The notes below the pieces were generated by a model that saw only the letters and a program-made list of their open reading frames with translations, was not told the DNA's origin and did no database searches. Source: a virus. From it: a stretch of 27,403 nucleotides of DNA. The DNA lies in IMG/VR virus record IMGVR_UViG_3300042691_024812, positions 1-27,403 of that record; one strand, written 5' to 3'. Both the position numbers and the translations under genes were made by a program. Below, in pieces: positions 2,132 to 24,255 of this stretch (position 1 is its first letter; each line of letters begins with the position of its first letter).

Positions 2132-2575
2132 GGATAGAATATACTAATACCTATCCGACCCCGAGCCGGGTATGGGTCCAGAAGTTGATCCTACGGCGGT
2201 ACACGGCGATAACTCTGGCTTCTACGTATCTGTGGCTCAAGTATGCTGAAACCGCCTTAAATCGCCTTAAAATAGCTTGTACGCCTACCGACCATGATCT
2301 GACTATGATCGCCATAGGTGGCGGTAGCCAGTCGGCCTTGATTCTCCGAATCTCGGATATGGCCCGAACGGGTATGAATTCAGGGATTGAGGATACGTTT
2401 ATACCTGATCGGATACAGGGTTAGACCAAGGGCCAATTATTTTTTTTACGCCTTTACTCTGAATTGATTCTCTACGGTCAGGATATGGCCAAGATCTTTA
2501 TTGGAGTACCAGGCATCTCGCTGCGCTCGATGGGTCGCTGCGCTCCTCCCCCAAGGCTATTTAATTTTTTCTACG
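2020..2575 (+). repeat. Four dispersed T-tract repeats, T(6-8) then CTACG
   Basis: The plus strand carries T8CTAC (2020-2031), T8CTACGCC (2094-2108), T8ACGCC (2440-2452) and T6CTACG (2565-2575), all in the same direction, and nothing alike was noticed inside the genes. The third follows the hairpin-rich stretch and could act as its U-rich 3' end. The fourth runs directly into the first TTCTACGATTTATAGAA site. Function unknown. Confidence 0.45.
2132..2452 (+). ncRNA. Candidate structured RNA ending in a U tract
   Basis: Many short helices can be drawn: GGATAG/CTATCC (2132-2137, 2151-2156), GACCC/GGGTC (about 2157-2178), GGCGGT/ACCGCC, CTACCG/CGGTAG (2285-2290, 2322-2327), GATTC/GAATC near 2340-2352, and a long-range GGCCTTG/CAAGGGCC pairing whose 3' half runs into A/T and T8. 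The open frame across this stretch has no domain character. It lies in the control region between divergent operons. This is a reading by eye, without a fold energy or relatives. Confidence 0.35.
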
Positions 2576-2585
2576 ATTTATAGAA
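2569..2585. promoter_or_regulatory. Operator-like dyad, site 1
   Basis: TTCTACGATTTATAGAA is an imperfect palindrome with TTCTA/TAGAA arms and a 7-nt centre. It is the most distant of three near-identical 17-bp sites upstream of the promoter at 2762. Confidence 0.5.
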
Positions 2586-2718
2586 ATTTTCCTTGGCCGA
2601 AAAAGGTCTAATATAATATAATATAGGAGCATCCGATACGAATTTTTGTAATATGTGCTGTAACCCTTTGCTGTGGCGGGTTTCAGGGTAGCATATTTTT
2701 TAGGCGTGTCTAAAGGAA

Positions 2719-2757
2719 TTCTACGATTCATAGAACGATGTTCTATGATTTATAGAA
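2719..2757. promoter_or_regulatory. Operator-like dyads, sites 2 and 3
   Basis: TTCTACGATTCATAGAA (2719-2735) and TTCTATGATTTATAGAA (2741-2757) match site 1 at 15-16 of 17 positions. Their starts are 22 bp apart, about two helical turns, so two dimers would bind the same face. Site 3 ends 4 bp before the -33 box, a position that suits an activator as well as a repressor. The binding protein is not identified; several winged-helix proteins in this window are candidates. Confidence 0.6.
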
Positions 2758-2761
2758 ATTC

Positions 2762-2792
2762 TTGCAAAACTGAAGTATAATACATATCTTTG
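2762..2792 (+). promoter_or_regulatory. Bacteroidota-type promoter of the first plus operon
   Basis: TTG (2762-2764) and TATCTTTG (2785-2792), with a 20-nt spacer, match the TTG / TAnnTTTG consensus of the Bacteroidota primary sigma factor. GCGTAAG follows the -7 box, as at other promoters here. The first gene starts 21 bp further on. Confidence 0.8.
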
Positions 2793-2813
2793 GCGTAAGC
2801 TAAAACATTATGT

Positions 2814-3755
2814 ATGGAGGGTACAAGTAAGGTCGCCGAATGGGATGAACTATCCCCCAAGATAAAGATTATGCCGGGCCAAAAACTGATCGGCAAACTT
2901 GACAAGAAAACTTACATGGCTCTCCCGTCTGGGGGAAGCCTTGAGCAGGGCGAACTGTATCTGGTGGTCCCTGCACCCGACAATGGCGGGATACCGGACA
3001 CAAAAAACGGCACTTGGTTTTCATACCGATCCCTGTTTGATTTTTTTTATGTCACGACCGGGTTTGTTGACCCGCCAAAGGCCCCCGACAGTGGGTTGGT
3101 TTTAAGACCCCACTTGGATGGCACAAAAGAGGTGGGGATTAATCTTTCAAAAGAAAACCCCATGGCCGGGTTTAAGCCTTGGCCAAAACTCCACGACAAC
3201 CTTGCTGAGGTTAAGTACGGTAAGGGTGAGTTCGCCTCCGCCCCGCAACCCATTGATGCTAAGGCGCCGGAAGATGTTCGGGTCGGCAAGAACGGGGGGA
3301 ACCCTATCAAGTCCTACGATTTCAAGTCTTACCTGTCCGGGATCCCAGACCGCCTCCCCGACCCGTTGCCCAACCCCTGGCCGAAGTACCCCGAAGCCTG
3401 GGGCGATTACCGTAAATATCCATGCCCCTTCCAGGAAGGCGACTTCATTAAAGACCAGCGTGGATCAACCTTTAAGGTGACAGAATCTCGCACTTTGGGT
3501 ATTTTATGCCAAAACGTGGCCACAAAAGAAACGGGATATATCTCAATGTCAAATTATGGCAAATACACCCACACTCCGCCTCCGGTGTGTTGTCACGAAA
3601 CCCCGAATCCCAGCCCGGTCCCCCCGGAAACAGGGAAATTCTTCACTCTTCCCTTCGAAACCGCAGTTGAGGTAGCTATGGGCCTGATGAGAAACGAGAA
3701 GGTCCGGGACGAGGTGTATCAAAGAATCTTAGACGAGGAGGGAATTAGGCCATGA
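2814..3755 (+). CDS. Hypothetical Pro/Gly-rich protein (313 aa)
   Basis: First gene of the plus operon, right behind the promoter. The start MEGTSKVAEWDELSPK is the ATG in frame with the whole open frame; an ATG four bases earlier is in another frame. The product is rich in Pro, Lys and Gly and soluble in appearance. A segment near residues 200-245 (FQEGDFIKDQRGSTFKVTES) looks like a small beta-barrel, and the C terminus is a charged helix (MGLMRNEKVRDEVYQRILDE). There is a CC pair near residue 257 and no catalytic motif. No family recognised. The last bases overlap the next start. Confidence 0.75.
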   Translation: MEGTSKVAEWDELSPKIKIMPGQKLIGKLDKKTYMALPSGGSLEQGELYLVVPAPDNGGIPDTKNGTWFSYRSLFDFFYVTTGFVDPPKAPDSGLVLRPHLDGTKEVGINLSKENPMAGFKPWPKLHDNLAEVKYGKGEFASAPQPIDAKAPEDVRVGKNGGNPIKSYDFKSYLSGIPDRLPDPLPNPWPKYPEAWGDYRKYPCPFQEGDFIKDQRGSTFKVTESRTLGILCQNVATKETGYISMSNYGKYTHTPPPVCCHETPNPSPVPPETGKFFTLPFETAVEVAMGLMRNEKVRDEVYQRILDEEGIRP

Positions 3756-13436: not shown

Positions 13437-14183
13437 TTATAGGTTGTCGGTTTCACAAAAAATAGTACAACTATAAGACTTTATTTTCCCTCCTTTTATG
13501 TCTTCAGGCAACTCATCAAGGAATATTCTCTTCCCCTTATATCTGACTAATCTTACCCCAAGCCGTCTGCTCTGCTCTGCTCTGGCAGCAAACACATCAG
13601 GGTTCTTGTCCCTAACCAGCTTCCAGTATTTCGGGGAGGTTGCCTTTACGCAGCCGATGCAGTTAGCGTTTGGATAACCCATTGAATACGCCTTGGGGAG
13701 TTTAATTCCGGCTGATGTTACAATTTCAAAGCACATCTGCTTCGTGATCTCTGCATCTATTAGAACGGGCAAAACATTATCCCTTTCGTATTTTACAAAC
13801 CTATCATGCCTTCGCTTTTCCTCATGTGTAAAGCCTAAAACGTGGTAATCTATATTGCGGGACCTCTCAAACTCTTGCCTTGCTTCTTTTTTTAAAATCA
13901 ATGTACATGGCGCACCCTTAATACCGGACATATATTTTCTTCTCTCCCAAACCTCAACCGCAGACGTCGTTCCTATCTTGGTGTTTTTGGCAAATAATAT
14001 CTCTTGCCCAAGCCATTTTTCTACATCGTCCAGAAACCGCTTATTGTCGGCGTCTTCCTCATCCACCGGGTTGTTGACAATGAGAATAGTGTTTTCGTTG
14101 CCGTACTTTTCAATGGTCTTTTTTGCCGCTACTGCTGATGCTGCGCCGCAAGAGAACCATACTGCTATTGTTTTGTCTTCCAT
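13437..14183 (-). CDS. PAPS-reductase-like PP-loop protein (248 aa)
   Basis: The start at ATG 14183 (MEDKTIAVWF) has the A-rich leader AAAACAAACC; a GTG at 14207 would add eight residues. VWFSCGAASAVAAKK at residues 8-22 is the PP-loop for adenine nucleotide binding in the PAPS reductase/QueC/DndC superfamily, here with Cys-Gly-Ala in place of Gly-Gly. APCTLILKKE, HVLGFTHEEKRRHDRF and the Cys pair NCIGCVKA, plus CTIFC at the C terminus, resemble phage members that carry an Fe-S or zinc site. It may move sulfur or activate a substrate. It shares an operon with two DNA cytosine methylases, so a DNA- or nucleotide-modifying role is plausible; true sulfate assimilation is less so. Confidence 0.75.
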   Translation of the reverse strand: MEDKTIAVWFSCGAASAVAAKKTIEKYGNENTILIVNNPVDEEDADNKRFLDDVEKWLGQEILFAKNTKIGTTSAVEVWERRKYMSGIKGAPCTLILKKEARQEFERSRNIDYHVLGFTHEEKRRHDRFVKYERDNVLPVLIDAEITKQMCFEIVTSAGIKLPKAYSMGYPNANCIGCVKATSPKYWKLVRDKNPDVFAARAEQSRRLGVRLVRYKGKRIFLDELPEDIKGGKIKSYSCTIFCETDNL

Positions 14184-14211
14184 GGTTTGTTTTTCTAATA
14201 ATCGCACTGGT

Positions 14212-14458: not shown

Positions 14459-15367
14459 TTATTGCTTGTTATTGGGCATGAGGGAACCGCCTCCAAGGCT
14501 TGTCGGCAAATCCTCATACGCCTGTATGGACTTAAAGATTTGGAAAACCACCTGGGGTACTACTGCGTTTCCGTAGGCTTTGATGGACTCTTGCGCCCAG
14601 GCAGAAAAGGTAATTCCGTCCAATCCTTGGGGAATCCCATCATTTGCCCTACGAACTGGGGGTTCAGTGGGCCATCCCATACCATCGAAAGCGATATAGT
14701 TTTCCCAATCTCCGCCCTCCTCAGTACCGCCCCGCTTCCCGGACCTCCCCGGTCCCTGTTGTCTGAGGCTGTTGGTGTCGGAAGCATCATTGTCACCAGC
14801 CTCCTCATTACCCTGCCCCCCTTGTCTGCCTTGGCCAGCGAGTCCCAGTTCACATTGTAATCCTTGATCTCTGACGCCGATGGCGTGGGCAACAATAAAG
14901 ATCCGATCCCTTCTGTGCGGTGCGTTTTGTGAACAAGCCGGGAGAACAATCGGGAGGACTGAGAAGCCTTCATTTTCCAGGTCAGCGCACACCGTGTCGA
15001 GTACCACTCCCCCGTTCCAATTAATAAGTCCATATACGTTCTCGCCCAAGACCCAGCGGGGGCGTACTTCTCGTATAACACGGAGCATTTCCGGCCAAAG
15101 GTATCTGCTGTCCCCGGTCCCCTTTTTTTCTCCAGCGGAGGAGAAGGGTTGGCAGGGGAAGCCGCCCGAAAGGACGTCAATTCGTCCTCTGTGAATAGAG
15201 AAGTCTGTTTTAGTAATATCATGGTAAGAAGTTGCTTTAGGCCAATAATGATTTAATATTTTTTGACAGAACGGATTCCATTCGCAATGGAATACGTTTT
15301 CCCATCCCATCCATTCGGCTGCGAGGTCAAAGCCTCCGATTCCTGAGAATAGTGATCCGTGTGTCAT
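14459..15367 (-). CDS. DNA (cytosine-5) methyltransferase, copy 1 (302 aa)
   Basis: Methylates C5 of cytosine in DNA. Starting at ATG 15367: motif I LFSGIGGFD, motif IV GGFPCQP with catalytic Cys 72, motif VI GENVYG, motif VIII NAPHRRDRI and motif X GNAVVPQV are all intact. The target-recognition region between VIII and X is short and Gly/Gln/Asp-rich (DASDTNSLRQQG) instead of a normal domain. About 68% identical to copy 2 over 114 core residues, counted by hand. The frame is open to 15421, but the start used overlaps a 12-codon leader frame by ATGA. A second long frame, +1, overlaps most of it (14560-15222). Target sequence unknown; protection from host restriction is the usual phage role. 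Confidence 0.9.
   Translation of the reverse strand: MTHGSLFSGIGGFDLAAEWMGWENVFHCEWNPFCQKILNHYWPKATSYHDITKTDFSIHRGRIDVLSGGFPCQPFSSAGEKKGTGDSRYLWPEMLRVIREVRPRWVLGENVYGLINWNGGVVLDTVCADLENEGFSVLPIVLPACSQNAPHRRDRIFIVAHAIGVRDQGLQCELGLAGQGRQGGQGNEEAGDNDASDTNSLRQQGPGRSGKRGGTEEGGDWENYIAFDGMGWPTEPPVRRANDGIPQGLDGITFSAWAQESIKAYGNAVVPQVVFQIFKSIQAYEDLPTSLGGGSLMPNNKQ
14560..15222 (-). CDS. Overprinted protein in the +1 frame of methyltransferase copy 1 (220 aa)
   Basis: A frame of 220 codons lies wholly inside the methyltransferase gene, +1 to it. It starts MILLKQTSLFTEDELTS and has GSWARTYMDLLIG (57-69), GEWYSTRCALTWK (71-83), LPTPSASE (111-118), LPTPTASD (147-154) and the ending MMGFPKDWTELPF (194-206). 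The same blocks in the same order, and the same frame offset, occur in methyltransferase copy 2; the first 112 residues align without gaps at about 46% identity by hand. It looks like a conserved second protein rather than a chance frame. The MGFP..WT ending recalls motif IX of cytosine methylases. The function may be as a partner or recognition subunit (inference). Confidence 0.6.
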   Translation of the reverse strand: MILLKQTSLFTEDELTSFRAASPANPSPPLEKKRGPGTADTFGRKCSVLYEKYAPAGSWARTYMDLLIGTGEWYSTRCALTWKMKASQSSRLFSRLVHKTHRTEGIGSLLLPTPSASEIKDYNVNWDSLAKADKGGRVMRRLVTMMLPTPTASDNRDRGGPGSGAVLRRAEIGKTISLSMVWDGPLNPQFVGQMMGFPKDWTELPFLPGRKSPSKPTETQ

Positions 15368-15402
15368 AAAAAAAATCCCCCCTTGCACATTGTTATGTCC
15401 AT
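15364..15402 (-). other. Micro reading frame before methyltransferase copy 1; remnant of a Cys-rich gene start
   Basis: The minus strand encodes MDITMCKGGFFL and stops at a TGA that overlaps the methylase ATG (ATGA). Its first six codons are identical to the start of the Cys-rich gene at 15834-16037 (MDITMCNGG). The 21-bp stretch at 15383-15403 recurs exactly at 16018-16038. It may be a leftover of recombination that now couples translation of the methylase. Confidence 0.5.
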
Positions 15403-15411
15403 AGTTTAATT

Positions 15412-15495
15412 TTATCCCCATTGTTCTGCCATTGCTTTAGCTATCCCAGGAAATGTTTTAGATCTCAATTTTGCTCTGTCCTCACTTGGCGGCAT
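15412..15495 (-). CDS. Possible very small protein (27 aa)
   Basis: An ATG within the last codons of the 99-aa gene opens a short frame, MPPSEDRAKLRSK then TFPGIAKAMAEQWG, stop TAA. The overlap with the upstream stop and the compact charged/amphipathic sequence look protein-like, but the length makes chance plausible. It lies just before the micro frame and methyltransferase copy 1. No function can be suggested. Confidence 0.35.
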   Translation of the reverse strand: MPPSEDRAKLRSKTFPGIAKAMAEQWG

Positions 15496-15833: not shown

Positions 15834-16037
15834 TCAGCCGTTATTGTCGGATATATCCACATTACCGTTGCGGATGGCAGCGTTGAGCATTTGCCTAACA
15901 GGCCAATATTGTTTACACTTCCCTTTCCGATGTGGCGGCTTGACAAAGTAGGACTGCCATTTACCTGGGATAGCCATAAATCGGTAACAAGTCTCTTTTA
16001 ATGGACACTTACCGCCATTGCACATTGTTATGTCCAT
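15834..16037 (-). CDS. Small Cys-rich protein (67 aa)
   Basis: Starts MDITMCNGGKCPLKETCYRF and overlaps the 3' end of methyltransferase copy 2 by 29 bp. Four Cys (C.{4}C.{5}C, then KGKC) with aromatic and basic residues (YFVKPPHRKGKCKQYWP) suggest a small metal- or Fe-S-binding protein, as is common in small phage proteins of this look. Its first codons are duplicated in front of methyltransferase copy 1, where the frame stops after 12 codons. Function unknown. Confidence 0.7.
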   Translation of the reverse strand: MDITMCNGGKCPLKETCYRFMAIPGKWQSYFVKPPHRKGKCKQYWPVRQMLNAAIRNGNVDISDNNG

Positions 16038-17292
16038 ATTGCTCTATTGCTTTAAAGATTTGGTAAACTACTTGTGGGACGATTGCGTTACCTGCTGCTT
16101 TGATTGATTCGTTTCTCCATTTTGAAAAGGTAATTCCGTCCAGTTCGGAGGAAAGCCCATCATCTCCAGTACAAACGGGGGATTGAGATGGGAACGTGTC
16201 CCAACTGGGGCGAGCATATTTAGATTCTCCTGGTGTGTGTTGCTCGTTGTTTTGAAGCCGTCTGCTGCTGCCGGTGTCGGTAACATTGTTACCCATTTGG
16301 CTATGTGTTCCTCCAGATTCCCTTTGTTCCTGTTGGCTAAACTTTCGGAGTTCAGGTCGCATCCATTCACCTGGTTGGCTCTCGGTGTCGGCAGCATCCC
16401 GCTTACCGCATACGTCCCTAAGTTTGCCGTTGTCTTGCCTGTGTTCTTTGGGTTGCCCGAACGCTCCATCCGCTTCTTCCAATCCTCGTAATTCTCCTCT
16501 ATTTCTGTTGCCTTTGGTGTCGGCAGCATCCCCAACACCATTGCGACATCCGTCATCCGACTGCCAAACTCCGTCCCCGTTGTTTTGCTCACTCTGACAA
16601 ATCTGCCGTTCTTCATCTGAGTTTGATTTGGTTGCCCATCCTTTGTGTCCATCGCCGTTGGTGTCGGCAGCATCCCCGCCCAAACCGCATAATCCAACGG
16701 GCTGAACTGTCTGGCTTTCCCGTCCTTCGTTCTTCGGTAATACAAAGGCTTGCCCTCCTCCTTCAACTGTTCCGCTACATCCGTCCGATGGCGTTCCACC
16801 GCATTTGGAGTAGGCCACAAACCAAATTCTATCTCGGCGGTGGGGAGCGTTGACGGATACAGCTGGAAGTACATACGGCCATACTTCGTACCCCGCAGCT
16901 TCCAGGTCAGCTTGCACCTCGTGGAATACCAATCCCCCTGACCAATTAACAAGGCCGAAAACGTTTTCGCCCACGACCCAACGTGGCTGAATTTCTCTAA
17001 TTGCTCTAAGCATTTCTGGCCAGAGATGTCGCTCGTCTTCTTTGCCTTTTCGTTTTCCTGCCATTGAGTATGGCTGGCAAGGGAATCCTCCGGTGAGGAT
17101 GTCGATGTGTCCTCTGTGAATAGTGAAGTCTGTTTTAGTAATGTCATGATATGAAATTGCTTTAGGCCAATAATGATGTAATACTTTTTGTCCAAACTCG
17201 TTCCATTCGCAATGGAATACGTTTTCCCATCCCATCCATTCGGCTGCGAGGTCAAAGCCTCCAATACCTGAGAATAGTGAGCCGTGGTTCAT
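16009..17292 (-). CDS. DNA (cytosine-5) methyltransferase, copy 2 (427 aa)
   Basis: All core motifs are present: LFSGIGGFD (6-14), GGFPCQP with Cys 72, GENVFG (108-113), NAPHRRDRI (148-156) and GNAIVPQV (401-408). Between VIII and X lie about 240 residues dominated by Gly, Asp, Asn, Gln and Ser, with repeated DAADT blocks, unlike a folded recognition domain; this composition is what the overlapping frame (16068-17147) would impose. The start at 17292 overlaps the DnaA-like gene by 4 bp (ATGA). The last residues (YGHNNVQWR) arise from the direct repeat. Specificity unknown; likely a solitary phage methylase, since no restriction enzyme is seen nearby. Confidence 0.9.
   Translation of the reverse strand: MNHGSLFSGIGGFDLAAEWMGWENVFHCEWNEFGQKVLHHYWPKAISYHDITKTDFTIHRGHIDILTGGFPCQPYSMAGKRKGKEDERHLWPEMLRAIREIQPRWVVGENVFGLVNWSGGLVFHEVQADLEAAGYEVWPYVLPAVSVNAPHRRDRIWFVAYSKCGGTPSDGCSGTVEGGGQAFVLPKNEGRESQTVQPVGLCGLGGDAADTNGDGHKGWATKSNSDEERQICQSEQNNGDGVWQSDDGCRNGVGDAADTKGNRNRGELRGLEEADGAFGQPKEHRQDNGKLRDVCGKRDAADTESQPGEWMRPELRKFSQQEQRESGGTHSQMGNNVTDTGSSRRLQNNEQHTPGESKYARPSWDTFPSQSPVCTGDDGLSSELDGITFSKWRNESIKAAGNAIVPQVVYQIFKAIEQYGHNNVQWR
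16018..16038. repeat. 21-bp direct repeat (second copy; first at 15383-15403)
   Basis: The two copies are identical over 21 bp, TTGCACATTGTTATG then TCCATA, and lie 635 bp apart, one just before each end of the region between the two methyltransferases. Each covers the start codon of an MDITMC reading frame. The layout suggests duplication of a methylase plus neighbour, or recombination between related cassettes. Confidence 0.7.
16068..17147 (-). CDS. Overprinted protein in the +1 frame of methyltransferase copy 2 (359 aa)
   Basis: An ATG at 17147, in the middle of the methylase DITKTD segment, opens 359 codons without a stop, fully inside the methylase gene. It starts MTLLKQTSLFTEDTSTSS, then GSWAKTFSALLIG (57-69), GDWYSTRCKLTWK (71-83), five (L/W)PTP repeats (111, 160, 208, 252, 289) and the ending MMGFPPNWTELPF (329-341). 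Each LPTP.A repeat is the same DNA as a DAADT block of the methylase. The frame is open further upstream to 17264, but the copy 1 product starts at the equivalent ATG. With equal codon use, a stop-free run this long has a chance of about 3 in 100 million. Function unknown; no membrane segment. Confidence 0.65.
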   Translation of the reverse strand: MTLLKQTSLFTEDTSTSSPEDSLASHTQWQENEKAKKTSDISGQKCLEQLEKFSHVGSWAKTFSALLIGQGDWYSTRCKLTWKLRGTKYGRMYFQLYPSTLPTAEIEFGLWPTPNAVERHRTDVAEQLKEEGKPLYYRRTKDGKARQFSPLDYAVWAGMLPTPTAMDTKDGQPNQTQMKNGRFVRVSKTTGTEFGSRMTDVAMVLGMLPTPKATEIEENYEDWKKRMERSGNPKNTGKTTANLGTYAVSGMLPTPRANQVNGCDLNSESLANRNKGNLEEHIAKWVTMLPTPAAADGFKTTSNTHQENLNMLAPVGTRSHLNPPFVLEMMGFPPNWTELPFQNGETNQSKQQVTQSSHK

Positions 17293-18359: not shown

Positions 18360-20732
18360 GTGGCTGATAACAATCCCTTAAGTCAGGAACTTTTAAAGTT
18401 TCATACCTCCTCCCCCACGAAGAAGTCTGATCCGGCTTACGGGGCTATTGTGGCCAAGAAGTTGCTTGACACCATTACTGGCAGCGCGAACAACTACTAC
18501 TACGCAAGGAATAGGAAGTTTGCTGACTTGAGGCGTATTGCAGAGGGGAATGCCGACATGAAGGAGTTCCTGGACTTGATGAATATCGATGGCAAGCAGG
18601 CGTTTGCAAAGATTGACATGACGCCTCCCAAGATTCTGCCAAAGTTTATCGACATCGTGGTGGAAAGGTTTATGGAGATGGAGGAAAGGCCAACGGTAAA
18701 AGCTGTGGACGACAGGAGTAAGAAGCAGAAGCAGCGCGACATGGACGAGGCTGAGTTTGTCATGAATAACTCCATGATGATCCAAGGCCTGGAGGAGGAA
18801 GTGGGACTGCCATTAGTGGACCCGCAGCAGTATGTGCCGGAGAGTTATGAGGACTTTGCCCTGTATTTTGACTACGAATACAAGCAGCCCGAAGAAATAA
18901 GGTTCCAGAGGAAAATTAGGGATACGTTGGCCGATAGTGATTCTGAGTCTATTAAGCGCCAGGTCTTGTATGATCACGCCATAGTCGGGTTTGGGGCAAT
19001 GTGGGTGTATAAGGACGCGAACGGAAACAAGAAGTACAAGAGGCTCATCCCCGAAAACGTGGTTTACGGGTGGTCGAATAAGGATAACTTCTCAGACTGC
19101 ACCCTGATCGGTGAGATCGAAAAGATGAAGGTGTCGGACGTCAGGTCGTACTGGCCTAACCTGACCGAGAAGAAGCTATACGAGATGTGGAAGGGGACTG
19201 ATCAGGGATCAAAGGTTTCCCTGGACTGGAGCAATGACTTCCAGCTTTCCCTGATCAGGCCGTATGACGATGCCCTGATCGAGATCTTCCACTTCCAGCT
19301 CACGACTACCGAATCCCATATGTGGGTTGAGAAAAAGGATAAGTACGGCAAACCCGTACTTGACGCCAAGAAAGAAAGGCCACAGCGTTTGGGCGAGGAC
19401 AAGGTGCTACACGCAAAAGAACTGGGGGTAATCTATTCCGGCTGCTACTCCAAGTCCACCAATGAGATATTGGAATGGAAGAAGCAGGAGAACATGATCA
19501 AGCCACACTACGCCTTGCATGAGGTGTTCAGTAACTATGTGCTGCACATGACCAATAACCGGGACATGAACAATGTGAGCCTGGTCGAGAGGGCTATTAC
19601 GCCCGTGCGTATGATGACATTGACGCTGATGAAGCTGCAGCAGATCGTGGCTAAACTGCGTCCCGATGGGTACGCTGTTGATATCCGTGGACTGCATGGT
19701 GTTAATCTTGGCCTTGGCCAGGATGAGTTTGCGTCTCCCATGCAGTTGGTTAGTATTGCGGACCAGACAGGCGTTGTGATATACAACGGTATTGGCGAGG
19801 ATGGTGAGACCCGACAAAACATCCCGATTACGCCTATCACAAACGACTCAAATGTCAATAAGATAACGGCTTTGGTCGAGCAGTACAACCATTGGTTGAG
19901 CAGGCTGAGGGACGACTTGGGCGTAAACGAGTATGTCGAGGGTCAAGCCGTTAACCCCAAACTTGGGCTGGGCGTTATGCAGAGCCAAGTCGCGGCATCC
20001 AACCGGAGTACCAACTTCATCTACAGGGCATACCTGAGCATGATGAAGGAGGTGTCTAAGAGGATAGCGATCATGGACTGGTATGATGTGGTCGAGAACG
20101 GGGATGATCGGTACGGCATTAAGGCGGAAGACTTTGAGGATCGCATATTCGACATCAACTTTGATATGGCGCCTACCGATCAGGACAGGCAGTACATAGA
20201 GCAGATGGCCCAGACTGCATTGAGTGCTGGCCTCATTACGTTTGAGGAGGCGGTCAAGATCAGGAGAATAGCCAAGGAGGATGTTAAGCTGGCGGAGATT
20301 TACCTTGGCAAGTACGAGTCCAAGCGTAAGCGCCAGATGCAAGATGAGGCCAACCAGAACTCGCAAACCCAGGCCCAGATCCAGAATCAAGTGGCCCAGA
20401 ACAAGGCGCAGGCAGATGCCCAGGCGTACCAACTCAAGGGACAGATCGACATCGCCAAGCAAGATAAAGTCAATGCCGGAACCAATACACAGGTTTTGGG
20501 GACGATCATAAACACAACCATAGCAGAACTGCTGAAGCAGGGCAAAGGCATACAGGATATGCCTGAGGAGTTGAAGCCAATCTTTGCTGCCTTCATGCAG
20601 AATATGGGCATTACGCAGCAGGCTCAGGCCCAGATGCAGATGCAAGAACAGCAGGCCCAAGCCCAGGCTGAACAGCAGGCTATGGAAGAGCAGAATCAGG
20701 AACCAGATCAGGAACAGCAAATGTCAATGTAA
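18360..20732 (+). CDS. Portal protein (about 790 aa)
   Basis: Dodecameric vertex ring through which DNA enters and leaves the capsid. The GTG at 18360 (VADNNPLSQELLKF) is preferred over an upstream ATG at 18312, which would lie inside the -33 box. Evidence for a portal: the large size, the N-terminal helical clip/wing region (IDIVVERFMEMEERPTVKA), beta-rich middle (IVGFGAMWVYKDANG), the long-helix region near RAITPVRMMTLTLMKLQQ and a very Gln/Ala-rich C-terminal tail (residues about 650-790) as in long portals of Bacteroidota phages. Three putative structural genes and the capsid gene follow. The stop overlaps the next start by one base. Confidence 0.85.
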   Translation: MADNNPLSQELLKFHTSSPTKKSDPAYGAIVAKKLLDTITGSANNYYYARNRKFADLRRIAEGNADMKEFLDLMNIDGKQAFAKIDMTPPKILPKFIDIVVERFMEMEERPTVKAVDDRSKKQKQRDMDEAEFVMNNSMMIQGLEEEVGLPLVDPQQYVPESYEDFALYFDYEYKQPEEIRFQRKIRDTLADSDSESIKRQVLYDHAIVGFGAMWVYKDANGNKKYKRLIPENVVYGWSNKDNFSDCTLIGEIEKMKVSDVRSYWPNLTEKKLYEMWKGTDQGSKVSLDWSNDFQLSLIRPYDDALIEIFHFQLTTTESHMWVEKKDKYGKPVLDAKKERPQRLGEDKVLHAKELGVIYSGCYSKSTNEILEWKKQENMIKPHYALHEVFSNYVLHMTNNRDMNNVSLVERAITPVRMMTLTLMKLQQIVAKLRPDGYAVDIRGLHGVNLGLGQDEFASPMQLVSIADQTGVVIYNGIGEDGETRQNIPITPITNDSNVNKITALVEQYNHWLSRLRDDLGVNEYVEGQAVNPKLGLGVMQSQVAASNRSTNFIYRAYLSMMKEVSKRIAIMDWYDVVENGDDRYGIKAEDFEDRIFDINFDMAPTDQDRQYIEQMAQTALSAGLITFEEAVKIRRIAKEDVKLAEIYLGKYESKRKRQMQDEANQNSQTQAQIQNQVAQNKAQADAQAYQLKGQIDIAKQDKVNAGTNTQVLGTIINTTIAELLKQGKGIQDMPEELKPIFAAFMQNMGITQQAQAQMQMQEQQAQAQAEQQAMEEQNQEPDQEQQMSM

Positions 20733-22855: not shown

Positions 22856-24211
22856 ATGCCACATGAGGCGTCACAACCCACAGTAATATCAGGCGGCGCA
22901 AACCGGGCGTTTGTCTCTGGCCTGAACATTTTTGACCGTTCTTATTCCGACAAACTCGTACAGAAGTACGGCAACGAAAAGTATTCCCAGGTTCTGGAAA
23001 TGCTTGGCCTCAAAGTAAAGACCGAAAACCGCGATTTCTACCACTATGAAAGGCGCAGGCGCCATGCATCCGTGAAGGTTGCGTCCCTGTCCGGTGGCGG
23101 ATCACCAGGCGTTAACGCCTTGGTTACGGTTAGTTCCGAGAACCACTACGACTCTGGGTCTAAATCTCCTGGCCGCTTGGGCGAGGTGGTTCAGGCTGGC
23201 GTTACTGGTATCCTTGGAAAGATCACCGCGATCAACGTAACTACGCCAAACGCGCACGTTTACACCATAGCACCTCTAAGGTCTACAGAACGGTTTAATC
23301 CCGGTGCTGGCGACTTCCTGTTCTTCCATGGTCTTCAGCACATTGGTGAGGCGTCTACAGCCCAGACCGCTATGCAGCCCCTGGTTGATAAGATCACCAA
23401 CTCCATCACTGAAATCCGCGAGGACTACGACATTACCGACAAGGCTGCCATGGAGAAAATCGAATGGCGCGATCCAGATAGCGGTATGACCTACTACAAG
23501 TACTATGGTACTTCGGAGGCTGAGGCCCGTTGGCTGAACAACCGTGAACTCTTGGCGATGTTTTCTGTTGACGTAACCAACACTGGTATCACATCCAATG
23601 GCACAGTTGGTACAAAGGGCATCCTCGACCAGGTTAGGGCTGCTGGCGCAACCCTGCAGTACACTCCCGGCTCTCTTGCCATCTTTGATTGGCAGCGTGT
23701 AAGCCGCGAAATGGACTTCAACGGAGCGAGTGCCGAAGCGCACGTTCTGTCTGACACGTTCCAGAATCAGGAATTGAACAGATCTCTGTTCTCTGCCTTC
23801 GATGATGGCGCCGTGCTTTGGGGTTCTGCTGGTGGCAGCAAAGAAGTGGCTGCGAAGCTCGGCTTCTCTTCTTTTGCCATCGACGGTGTTACCTTCCACT
23901 TCAAGAAGTACTACGGATTCACTCCTGAGAAAATGTACGGTGTTGCTCCTACGCTCACAACTGCGTACAGGAACTACGGCCTGATCATCCCTCAGGGTTA
24001 CGGAACCGACCCGATGACCGCTCAAAAACTCCCAACCATCTGTCTGCGTTACCAGGAAATCAAGCCTGGCATGGAAATGAACGTATACGAATACGGTGGC
24101 TTGGCTGAGACCAACAAGACTCCGGAGCAGAAGTTGAGCAACGTCATTGTTGGACACTACGGTGTTCAGGTGCAGGCTGCCAACCAGTGCGTGATCTTCC
24201 AGGGTCAGTAA
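22856..24211 (+). CDS. Major capsid protein (451 aa)
   Basis: Likely HK97-fold shell protein. The support is order (portal, scaffold-like, this, then a strong terminator), size, and an even, Gly/Ala/Val-rich globular sequence without signal or membrane segments. VQKYGNEKYSQVLEMLG and the basic RRRRHASVKV lie near the N terminus, in the place of the N-arm and E-loop; FDWQRVSREMDFNG and IPQGYGTDPMTAQKL are later segments. Codons here are rich in C-ending, well-translated forms, as for a highly expressed gene. The start ATG has the A-rich leader AAAGCGAATTAAT. Confidence 0.8.
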   Translation: MPHEASQPTVISGGANRAFVSGLNIFDRSYSDKLVQKYGNEKYSQVLEMLGLKVKTENRDFYHYERRRRHASVKVASLSGGGSPGVNALVTVSSENHYDSGSKSPGRLGEVVQAGVTGILGKITAINVTTPNAHVYTIAPLRSTERFNPGAGDFLFFHGLQHIGEASTAQTAMQPLVDKITNSITEIREDYDITDKAAMEKIEWRDPDSGMTYYKYYGTSEAEARWLNNRELLAMFSVDVTNTGITSNGTVGTKGILDQVRAAGATLQYTPGSLAIFDWQRVSREMDFNGASAEAHVLSDTFQNQELNRSLFSAFDDGAVLWGSAGGSKEVAAKLGFSSFAIDGVTFHFKKYYGFTPEKMYGVAPTLTTAYRNYGLIIPQGYGTDPMTAQKLPTICLRYQEIKPGMEMNVYEYGGLAETNKTPEQKLSNVIVGHYGVQVQAANQCVIFQGQ

Positions 24212-24255
24212 GCAAGTTTCCATCTTCCATACATAATGGCTTAACCATCGGCCAC

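Follow-up and report, generated by a model that had tools for sequence, protein, structure and literature searches.

Nested reading frames in phage methylase genes point to split C5-cytosine DNA methyltransferases with exchangeable putative recognition modules

The tandem pair of methylase genes in the viral DNA analyzed here (IMG/VR record IMGVR_UViG_3300042691_024812, 27,403 nucleotides, hereafter the window) very probably encodes split, nested C5-cytosine DNA methyltransferases (C5-MTases) that follow the M.EcoHK31I type of division and are most likely used against host restriction. In both copies, the longer chain (alpha) possesses motifs I–VIII and X and lacks motif IX, while a second reading frame nested within it (beta) possesses LPTP modules and motif IX; in actinophages and one Brevibacillus locus, beta also carries motif X. 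This distribution points to a C5-methylase whose target-recognition domain (TRD) and motif IX belong to a subunit encoded in the alternative frame.

A sequence-only reading of this DNA had proposed a second protein overprinted on copy 2 of the methylase. Such a protein appears to be real, to lie in the +1 frame and to be under constraint, but it does not seem to be an unrelated gene: its membership of phrog_1008, its motif IX and the fusion to motif X in actinophages mark it as the probable target-recognition/motif-IX part of the same methylase. What looked like a de novo overprint thus becomes a widespread architecture, in which the two halves of an enzyme would be drawn from one DNA in two frames, with selection switching along the gene. 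The sequences directly support the openness and conservation of both frames, the switch in selection, the division of the motifs, the homology to sequentially split methylases and the exchange of modules.

A catalytic chain without motif IX

The genes of both copies and the motif X of alpha2 are located as follows.

16009–17292, minus strand: alpha2, catalytic-subunit gene of 427 aa, with motifs I–VIII at aa 1–163, a linker at about aa 175–375 and motif X at aa 397–408
16069–16104, minus strand: alpha2 motif X (IKAAGNAIVPQV), with GNA.VPQ near-invariant in alignments A2 and A6
16068–17147, minus strand: beta2, nested +1-frame subunit, 359 aa from the ATG, with putative target-recognition modules and motif IX; phrog_1008, E 5e-27
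14459–15421, minus strand: alpha1, second copy of the catalytic-subunit gene, 320 aa; PF00145, E 1e-44, over aa 20–179 only
14560–15222, minus strand: beta1, +1-frame subunit nested in alpha1, 220 aa; phrog_1008, E 1.5e-21

The alpha2 product carries GGFPCQPYS, GENV and APHRRDR, and thus the C5-MTase motifs I–VIII with the Pro-Cys catalytic loop. Its match to PF00145 (E 2.3e-43) is confined to aa 2–163, which span these motifs, and the TRD and motif IX that accompany motifs I–VIII in a single-chain C5-MTase are missing from it. The same holds across the family: motif X occurs in 152 of 161 alphas, and motif IX in a single one of the 161, a chance match.

The AF2 model of alpha2 has pLDDT values above 90 in most of the core (residues 1–172), below 50 at residues 175–375 and confident again in the C-terminal helix. 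Compared with M.HhaI, 194 residues align (Z 20, 3.0 Å), with residues 1–426 set against 12–327 and matched at both ends; the model is consistent with the part of M.HhaI that has no alpha2 counterpart being its small DNA-recognition domain. The roughly 200-residue middle of alpha therefore resembles a predicted-disordered, out-of-frame linker, and the evidence suggests that it is held open to reach motif X. The locus L126 of Brevibacillus, in which motif X has moved to the beta frame and stops abound in that of alpha after motif VIII, likewise suggests that the middle stays open only for this reason.

The nested frame and its openness

Beta2 runs on the minus strand from an ATG at 17147 to a stop that ends at 16068, and comprises 359 codons. 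Its frame is +1 relative to alpha2, since the 145 bases from 17292 to 17147 equal 1 modulo 3, so that the coordinates and frame first read from the sequence are confirmed. The organized segments described in that reading, namely WYSTRC.LTWK, five (L/W)PTP repeats and an ending of the form MMGFP..WTELPF, are also present, as WYSTRCKLTWK, one WPTP plus four LPTP, and MMGFPPNWTELPF.

To evaluate openness, the methylase protein was kept fixed while its synonymous codons were either shuffled or redrawn with the codon usage of the window, in 20,000 trials each. The stop-free run of the beta2 frame is 406 codons, a length reached in 0 of 20,000 shuffled trials and 1 of 20,000 redrawn trials; the 230-codon run of copy 1 was reached in 6 and 20 of 20,000, respectively. 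A chance origin of the open +1 frame is unlikely. The probability of 3e-8 first attached to the run was nevertheless overstated, because the +1 frame of these methylase genes has a mean open length of about 95–130 codons anyway.

The evidence for beta2 does not cover its whole length, as can be seen in two of its segments.

16980–17147, minus strand: first ~56 codons of beta2, open, with undetectable beta-frame constraint (alpha-synonymous divergence ratio 0.9–1.07) and the start ATG at 17147
16899–16979, minus strand: dual-coded block, holding the alpha2 motif V–VIII region and the beta2 conserved core GSWAKTFSALLIG..WYSTRCKLTWK

As constraint is undetectable over the ~55 N-terminal codons, the ATG at 17147 is a candidate start only. 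Constraint is thus seen beyond the start, but the proposal of a 359-codon protein is not borne out for every one of its codons. The core residues of the dual-coded block are nearly invariant in 102 betas.

The nested reading frame of copy 1, absent from the earlier reading, was found on re-examination. Beta1 has the same WYSTRC.LTWK as beta2, along with two LPTP units and MMGFPKDWTELPF; its two modules have their LPTP at 14881–14892 and 14773–14784, and its motif IX lies at 14620–14667.

Nesting across homologous loci

Viral contigs were scanned with the beta2 product, which yielded 497 relatives, of which 80 were kept; together with annotated phages and the window, these form a set of 89 betas. 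Loci were collected via beta, so its presence was conditioned on, while the presence and openness of alpha were not. The +1 frame of an alpha ORF holds beta in all 89 loci of this set. Among bacterial genomes, 75 of 83 loci have beta in the methylase +1 frame; the other eight consist of a sequence gap, a rearranged locus, an indel and five cases in which alpha is broken. Alpha matches also overlap the beta region in 16 of 16 further loci (two of them in reference genomes, the others in a sample of the class that includes G001); scattered stops occur in some of these loci.

Stop codons are distributed very unevenly among the frames. Across 128 loci, the alpha frame contains no stop where beta holds the TRD, against 601 expected with shuffled beta codons, whereas the unused third frame of the same loci contains 1,055 against 976 expected. 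Of 112 loci, 83 have a beta-frame ATG near the DITK of alpha, where 44 would be expected to have one. Stops scattered through the +1 frame of homologues, which would have spoken against a second protein, were seen in no homologue set. It is this comparative evidence, more than the openness statistics, that we regard as decisive in taking the beta frame to be real.

Three bacterial loci appeared to fuse alpha and beta, and L126 is the sole real rearrangement among them: the apparent fusion in L095 is a run of N, and that in L152 looks like a one-base indel shifting both frames. In four loci from Bacteroides genomes (L130, L131, L162 and L163), alpha, from about position 2853, contains TGA at two conserved Trp (AAE*MGW and FSR*RQ) and a third TGA in its linker. 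Beta is open in these loci; the methylase has either decayed or is translated with TGA read as Trp. In the Escherichia phage Dru_SM5 (L196), beta alone is annotated, as a “macromolecule metabolism and synthesis protein”, and the surrounding alpha frame is unannotated.

Selection switches frame along the gene

In the +1 arrangement, the third position of an alpha codon is the second of a beta codon, and the first position of alpha is the third, or wobble, position of beta. Position-wise divergence, measured over 23 disjoint pairs, can therefore be assigned to either frame. At alpha positions 1, 2 and 3, the pairs differ at rates of.075,.062 and.272 upstream of the beta ORF and of.070,.035 and.258 downstream of it, the usual pattern; in the LPTP region these rates become.203,.061 and.065. 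Here the excess falls on the beta wobble base in 20 pairs against 1 (21 informative). Wobble divergence thus tracks the alpha frame over motifs I–VIII and X but shifts to that of beta between these two parts.

Alpha-synonymous divergence, expressed relative to non-overlapping codons, follows the same course. The ratio is about 0.9–1.07 over the first ~55 codons of beta, falls to 0.55–0.67 over GSWAKTF...WYSTRC.LTWK and to 0.3–0.5 over many repeat segments, and reaches 0.19–0.30 over motif IX, a stretch conserved in alpha and beta alike. The onset of beta-frame constraint precedes motif VIII of alpha (alpha codons 135–180). These reduced ratios and the wobble reversal bear out the constraint on the +1 frame for which a selection test had been suggested.

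Since divergence in the LPTP region falls on the beta wobble base, constraint in that region acts on beta, with alpha as the passenger; the Gly/Asp/Asn/Gln-rich stretch of alpha is therefore beta coding sequence read out of frame. The initial suggestion that the middle of the methylase was “paying” for the second protein has the direction reversed in this part of the gene.

Identity of beta and its sequentially split relatives

By profile match, the beta family is phrog_1008, a family named DNA methyltransferase. The LPTP.A.D repeat proteins that the earlier reading placed beside phage methylases are this same family, which is regularly annotated as a second “DNA methylase”. Motif IX was recognized in 148 of 161 betas and in beta2 lies as follows.

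16140–16187, minus strand: beta2 motif IX (LNPPFVLEMMGFPPNW), assigned by hhalign to motif IX, with both frames conserved

The assignment comes from actinophage betas, to whose motif IX the LNPPFVLEMMGFPPNW stretch was aligned by hhalign with an E of 9.7e-9. The one local profile match of beta to single-chain MTases also falls on motif IX, LNPPFVLEMMGFPPNW against LTPRECARLMGF of Dcm-like enzymes, and is weak (hhalign probability 0.6%). No family in Pfam, NCBIfam or PADLOC was matched by beta, and a Pfam search of 102 betas at E ≤ 10 returned scattered chance names only. The beta profile found no match among PDB sequences, and Foldseek searches of the PDB and of viral models with the AF2 model of beta, itself poor (mean pLDDT 62), gave none at E ≤ 0.001.

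Relatives in which the two parts follow one another clarify the relationship. In actinophages, the methylase ends after motif VIII, and the next gene, which either adjoins or partly overlaps it, encodes LPTP units together with motifs IX and X. One such gene product, DarthPhader gp22, matches phrog_1008 with an E of 4.8e-73. Actinophage betas align with Dcm-like enzymes over motifs IX–X (E 2.6e-4) and match the MTase family phrog_116 at 415–490, a family that alpha2 matched at 208–374. Alpha and beta are annotated as separate genes in actinophages and in Paenibacillus phages. Within L126, at 2300–3700, it is the beta frame that carries motif X, and many stops close the alpha frame after motif VIII; we read this as a natural transition from a nested to a sequential arrangement of the split gene.

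Exchangeable modules

Betas contain one to seven LPTP-headed units, with a median of 39 residues, in the stretch that separates the conserved core from motif IX. Those of beta2 are listed below.

16671–16817, minus strand: module 1 (WPTPNAVERHRTD...)
16527–16670, minus strand: module 2 (LPTPTAMDTKDG...)
16395–16526, minus strand: module 3 (LPTPKATEIEEN...)
16284–16394, minus strand: module 4 (LPTPRANQVNGCDLNSESLANRNKGNLEEHIAKWVTM), common to other loci, in an 8-member module cluster
16188–16283, minus strand: module 5 (LPTPAAADGFKTT...)

The 385 units collected group into 61 clusters of at least two members plus 118 singletons, and units of the same type recur at differing positions of the array. 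Module 4 of the window and module 3 of L008 are 99.1% identical in nucleotides, while the corresponding alpha cores are only 82.8% identical; ten further pairs likewise combine a near-identical module with a divergent methylase core. Judged from these sequences, beta modules do recombine between phages as DNA cassettes, and, as in multispecific MTases, several exchangeable modules stand between motifs VIII and IX.

C5-methylases hold target recognition in the variable part that separates motif VIII from motif IX, and for this reason the LPTP units are best read as recognition modules. From their position, variability and exchange, we infer that each may recognize a DNA target, and the exchange suggests a swappable, perhaps multi-specific, recognition array.

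Proposed mechanism and alternative explanations

According to the explanation we favor, frame 0 would yield alpha, with a SAM-binding and catalytic domain (motifs I–VIII), a long disordered linker and the motif X helix, and translation starting at an internal ATG of the +1 frame would produce beta. Beta would then supply the conserved core (GSWAKTF...WYSTRC.LTWK), a variable number of LPTP modules and motif IX, that is, the small domain missing from alpha. Both chains would assemble into one enzyme methylating phage DNA, most likely against host restriction. The DNA of the TRD region would be shaped by beta, with the alpha reading kept stop-free there only to reach motif X, and cassette exchange between phages probably changes or adds target sequences. 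From sequence patterns, we infer that beta is translated and assembles with alpha, that the pair methylates DNA, that the modules recognize targets and that the enzyme counters restriction. More tentatively, with a confidence somewhat short of even, we suggest that the nested frame serves as a recombining array of TRD cassettes, whose specificities could be swapped, gained or lost, so that one enzyme might face several restriction systems while the catalytic gene acquires only a longer disordered linker.

Beta could instead be a protein in its own right, overprinted on a methylase that is already complete, for instance an anti-restriction or regulatory factor unrelated to methylation, which would agree with its having no Pfam, NCBIfam or PADLOC family and no fold match. 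This is very unlikely, since the methylase is not complete, motif IX being missing in 160 of 161 alphas and the middle of alpha2 predicted to be disordered, and since beta has motif IX, belongs to phrog_1008 and is fused to motif X in actinophages and in L126. Equally unlikely is a programmed +1 frameshift that would join motifs I–VIII of alpha to the TRD and motif IX of beta in a single fused chain, with no separate beta. Such a chain would have the TRD and motif IX following motif VIII, as in ordinary methylases, but beta-frame constraint starts before motif VIII of alpha, so that this DNA has to serve both frames at once; the upstream beta-frame ATG is enriched, and actinophages and Paenibacillus phages have separately annotated genes. 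Given the dual constraint ahead of motif VIII and the ATG enrichment near DITK, a separate beta chain is favored over a frameshift fusion.

Finally, the open +1 frame could be an untranslated by-product of codon bias and conserved methylase sequence, and both the open codons that this frame averages anyway and the unconstrained beginning of beta would be expected from it. The 406 open codons obtained in 0–1 of 20,000 shuffles, the reversed wobble periodicity of the LPTP region and the protein-like modules that are exchanged make this explanation almost inconceivable; the wobble reversal, together with the lowered alpha-synonymous divergence, already refutes most of it, and a chance or codon-bias origin is rejected on the shuffles, the wobble reversal and the 0 against 601 alpha-frame stops.

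The split, nested methylase also accounts for the fact that gene callers report either half of a locus of this kind, or both halves as two overlapping “methylases”. Should specificity be set by the LPTP modules, beta might allow methylation motifs to be predicted, and module shuffling would prove to be tolerated by a long dual-coding region.

Comparison with known systems

M.EcoHK31I and M.AquI recognize YGGCCR and CYCGRG, respectively. Lee et al. (1995) are said to have described the gene for the small chain of M.EcoHK31I as lying within that for the large chain in another reading frame, the same nesting of the small-subunit gene as in the window. Both two-polypeptide enzymes were traced through PMC3404938 and PMC3439449. 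In M.EcoHK31I, the large subunit carries motifs I–VIII, X and the predicted TRD, and the small one motif IX only, while M.AquI is a C5-MTase split in the variable region, with motifs IX–X on the small subunit (PMC3404938).

By this published description, the window shares with M.EcoHK31I a large chain with motifs I–VIII and X and a small chain with motif IX. It differs in that selection on the TRD region follows the beta frame, with alpha predicted to be disordered there, whereas the predicted TRD of M.EcoHK31I is on the large subunit; furthermore, the window genes are phage-borne, form a tandem pair and have two and five exchangeable LPTP modules. The order of M.AquI is shared by L126 and by actinophage pairs such as DarthPhader gp21/gp22, which belong to the same beta family. 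Both window copies depart from it, in contrast, by having motif X on alpha and beta fully nested, where M.AquI has motifs IX and X on the small subunit.

Multispecific C5-MTases of SPbeta-group Bacillus phages (phi3T type) are single chains with several exchangeable TRDs between motifs VIII and IX. The window family resembles them in its one to seven exchangeable modules at the same position, but here the modules are in the other frame and their recognition role is putative. M.BsuMI (YdiO/YdiP) is a two-subunit C5-MTase, and one alpha/beta locus of a Paenibacillus phage is annotated as a BsuMI subunit, a likeness by annotation and description. Existing phrog_1008 annotations and the overlapping “DNA methylase (x2)” entries of Paenibacillus and mycobacterial phages correspond to the beta family, although they record no subunit role, frame-switching selection or module exchange, and often only one gene of the two is annotated.

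No paper on a nested methylase family in phages was found in the literature, which is weak evidence of absence as the search covered open-licence papers only. A split, nested C5-MTase is itself a known if rare arrangement, attributed to a single bacterial enzyme; the breadth of the nested split, the frame-switching selection and the exchangeable module array are new.

Neighborhood of the methylase genes

Several further features of the window deserve mention, all of them on the minus strand. A 67-aa Cys-containing ORF (MDITMCNGGKCPLKETC...) at 15834–16037 starts at the end of alpha2, and a copy of its first ~20 bases (ATGGACATAACAATGTGCAA) occurs at about 15380–15403, just before alpha1, perhaps as a trace of tandem duplication. 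Adjoining the methylases, at 13437–14207, is a gene of the PAPS-reductase family (phrog_424, E 2.4e-42, with a weak SspD match in PADLOC); a gene of this family also lies beside the alpha/beta gene in the Bacteroides phages BS-TP4 and BKO1-TP3. Elsewhere in the window, a 315-aa ORF at 23276–24223 is antisense to the gene at 22856–24211, and a 290-aa ORF at 19848–20720 is antisense to the portal gene.
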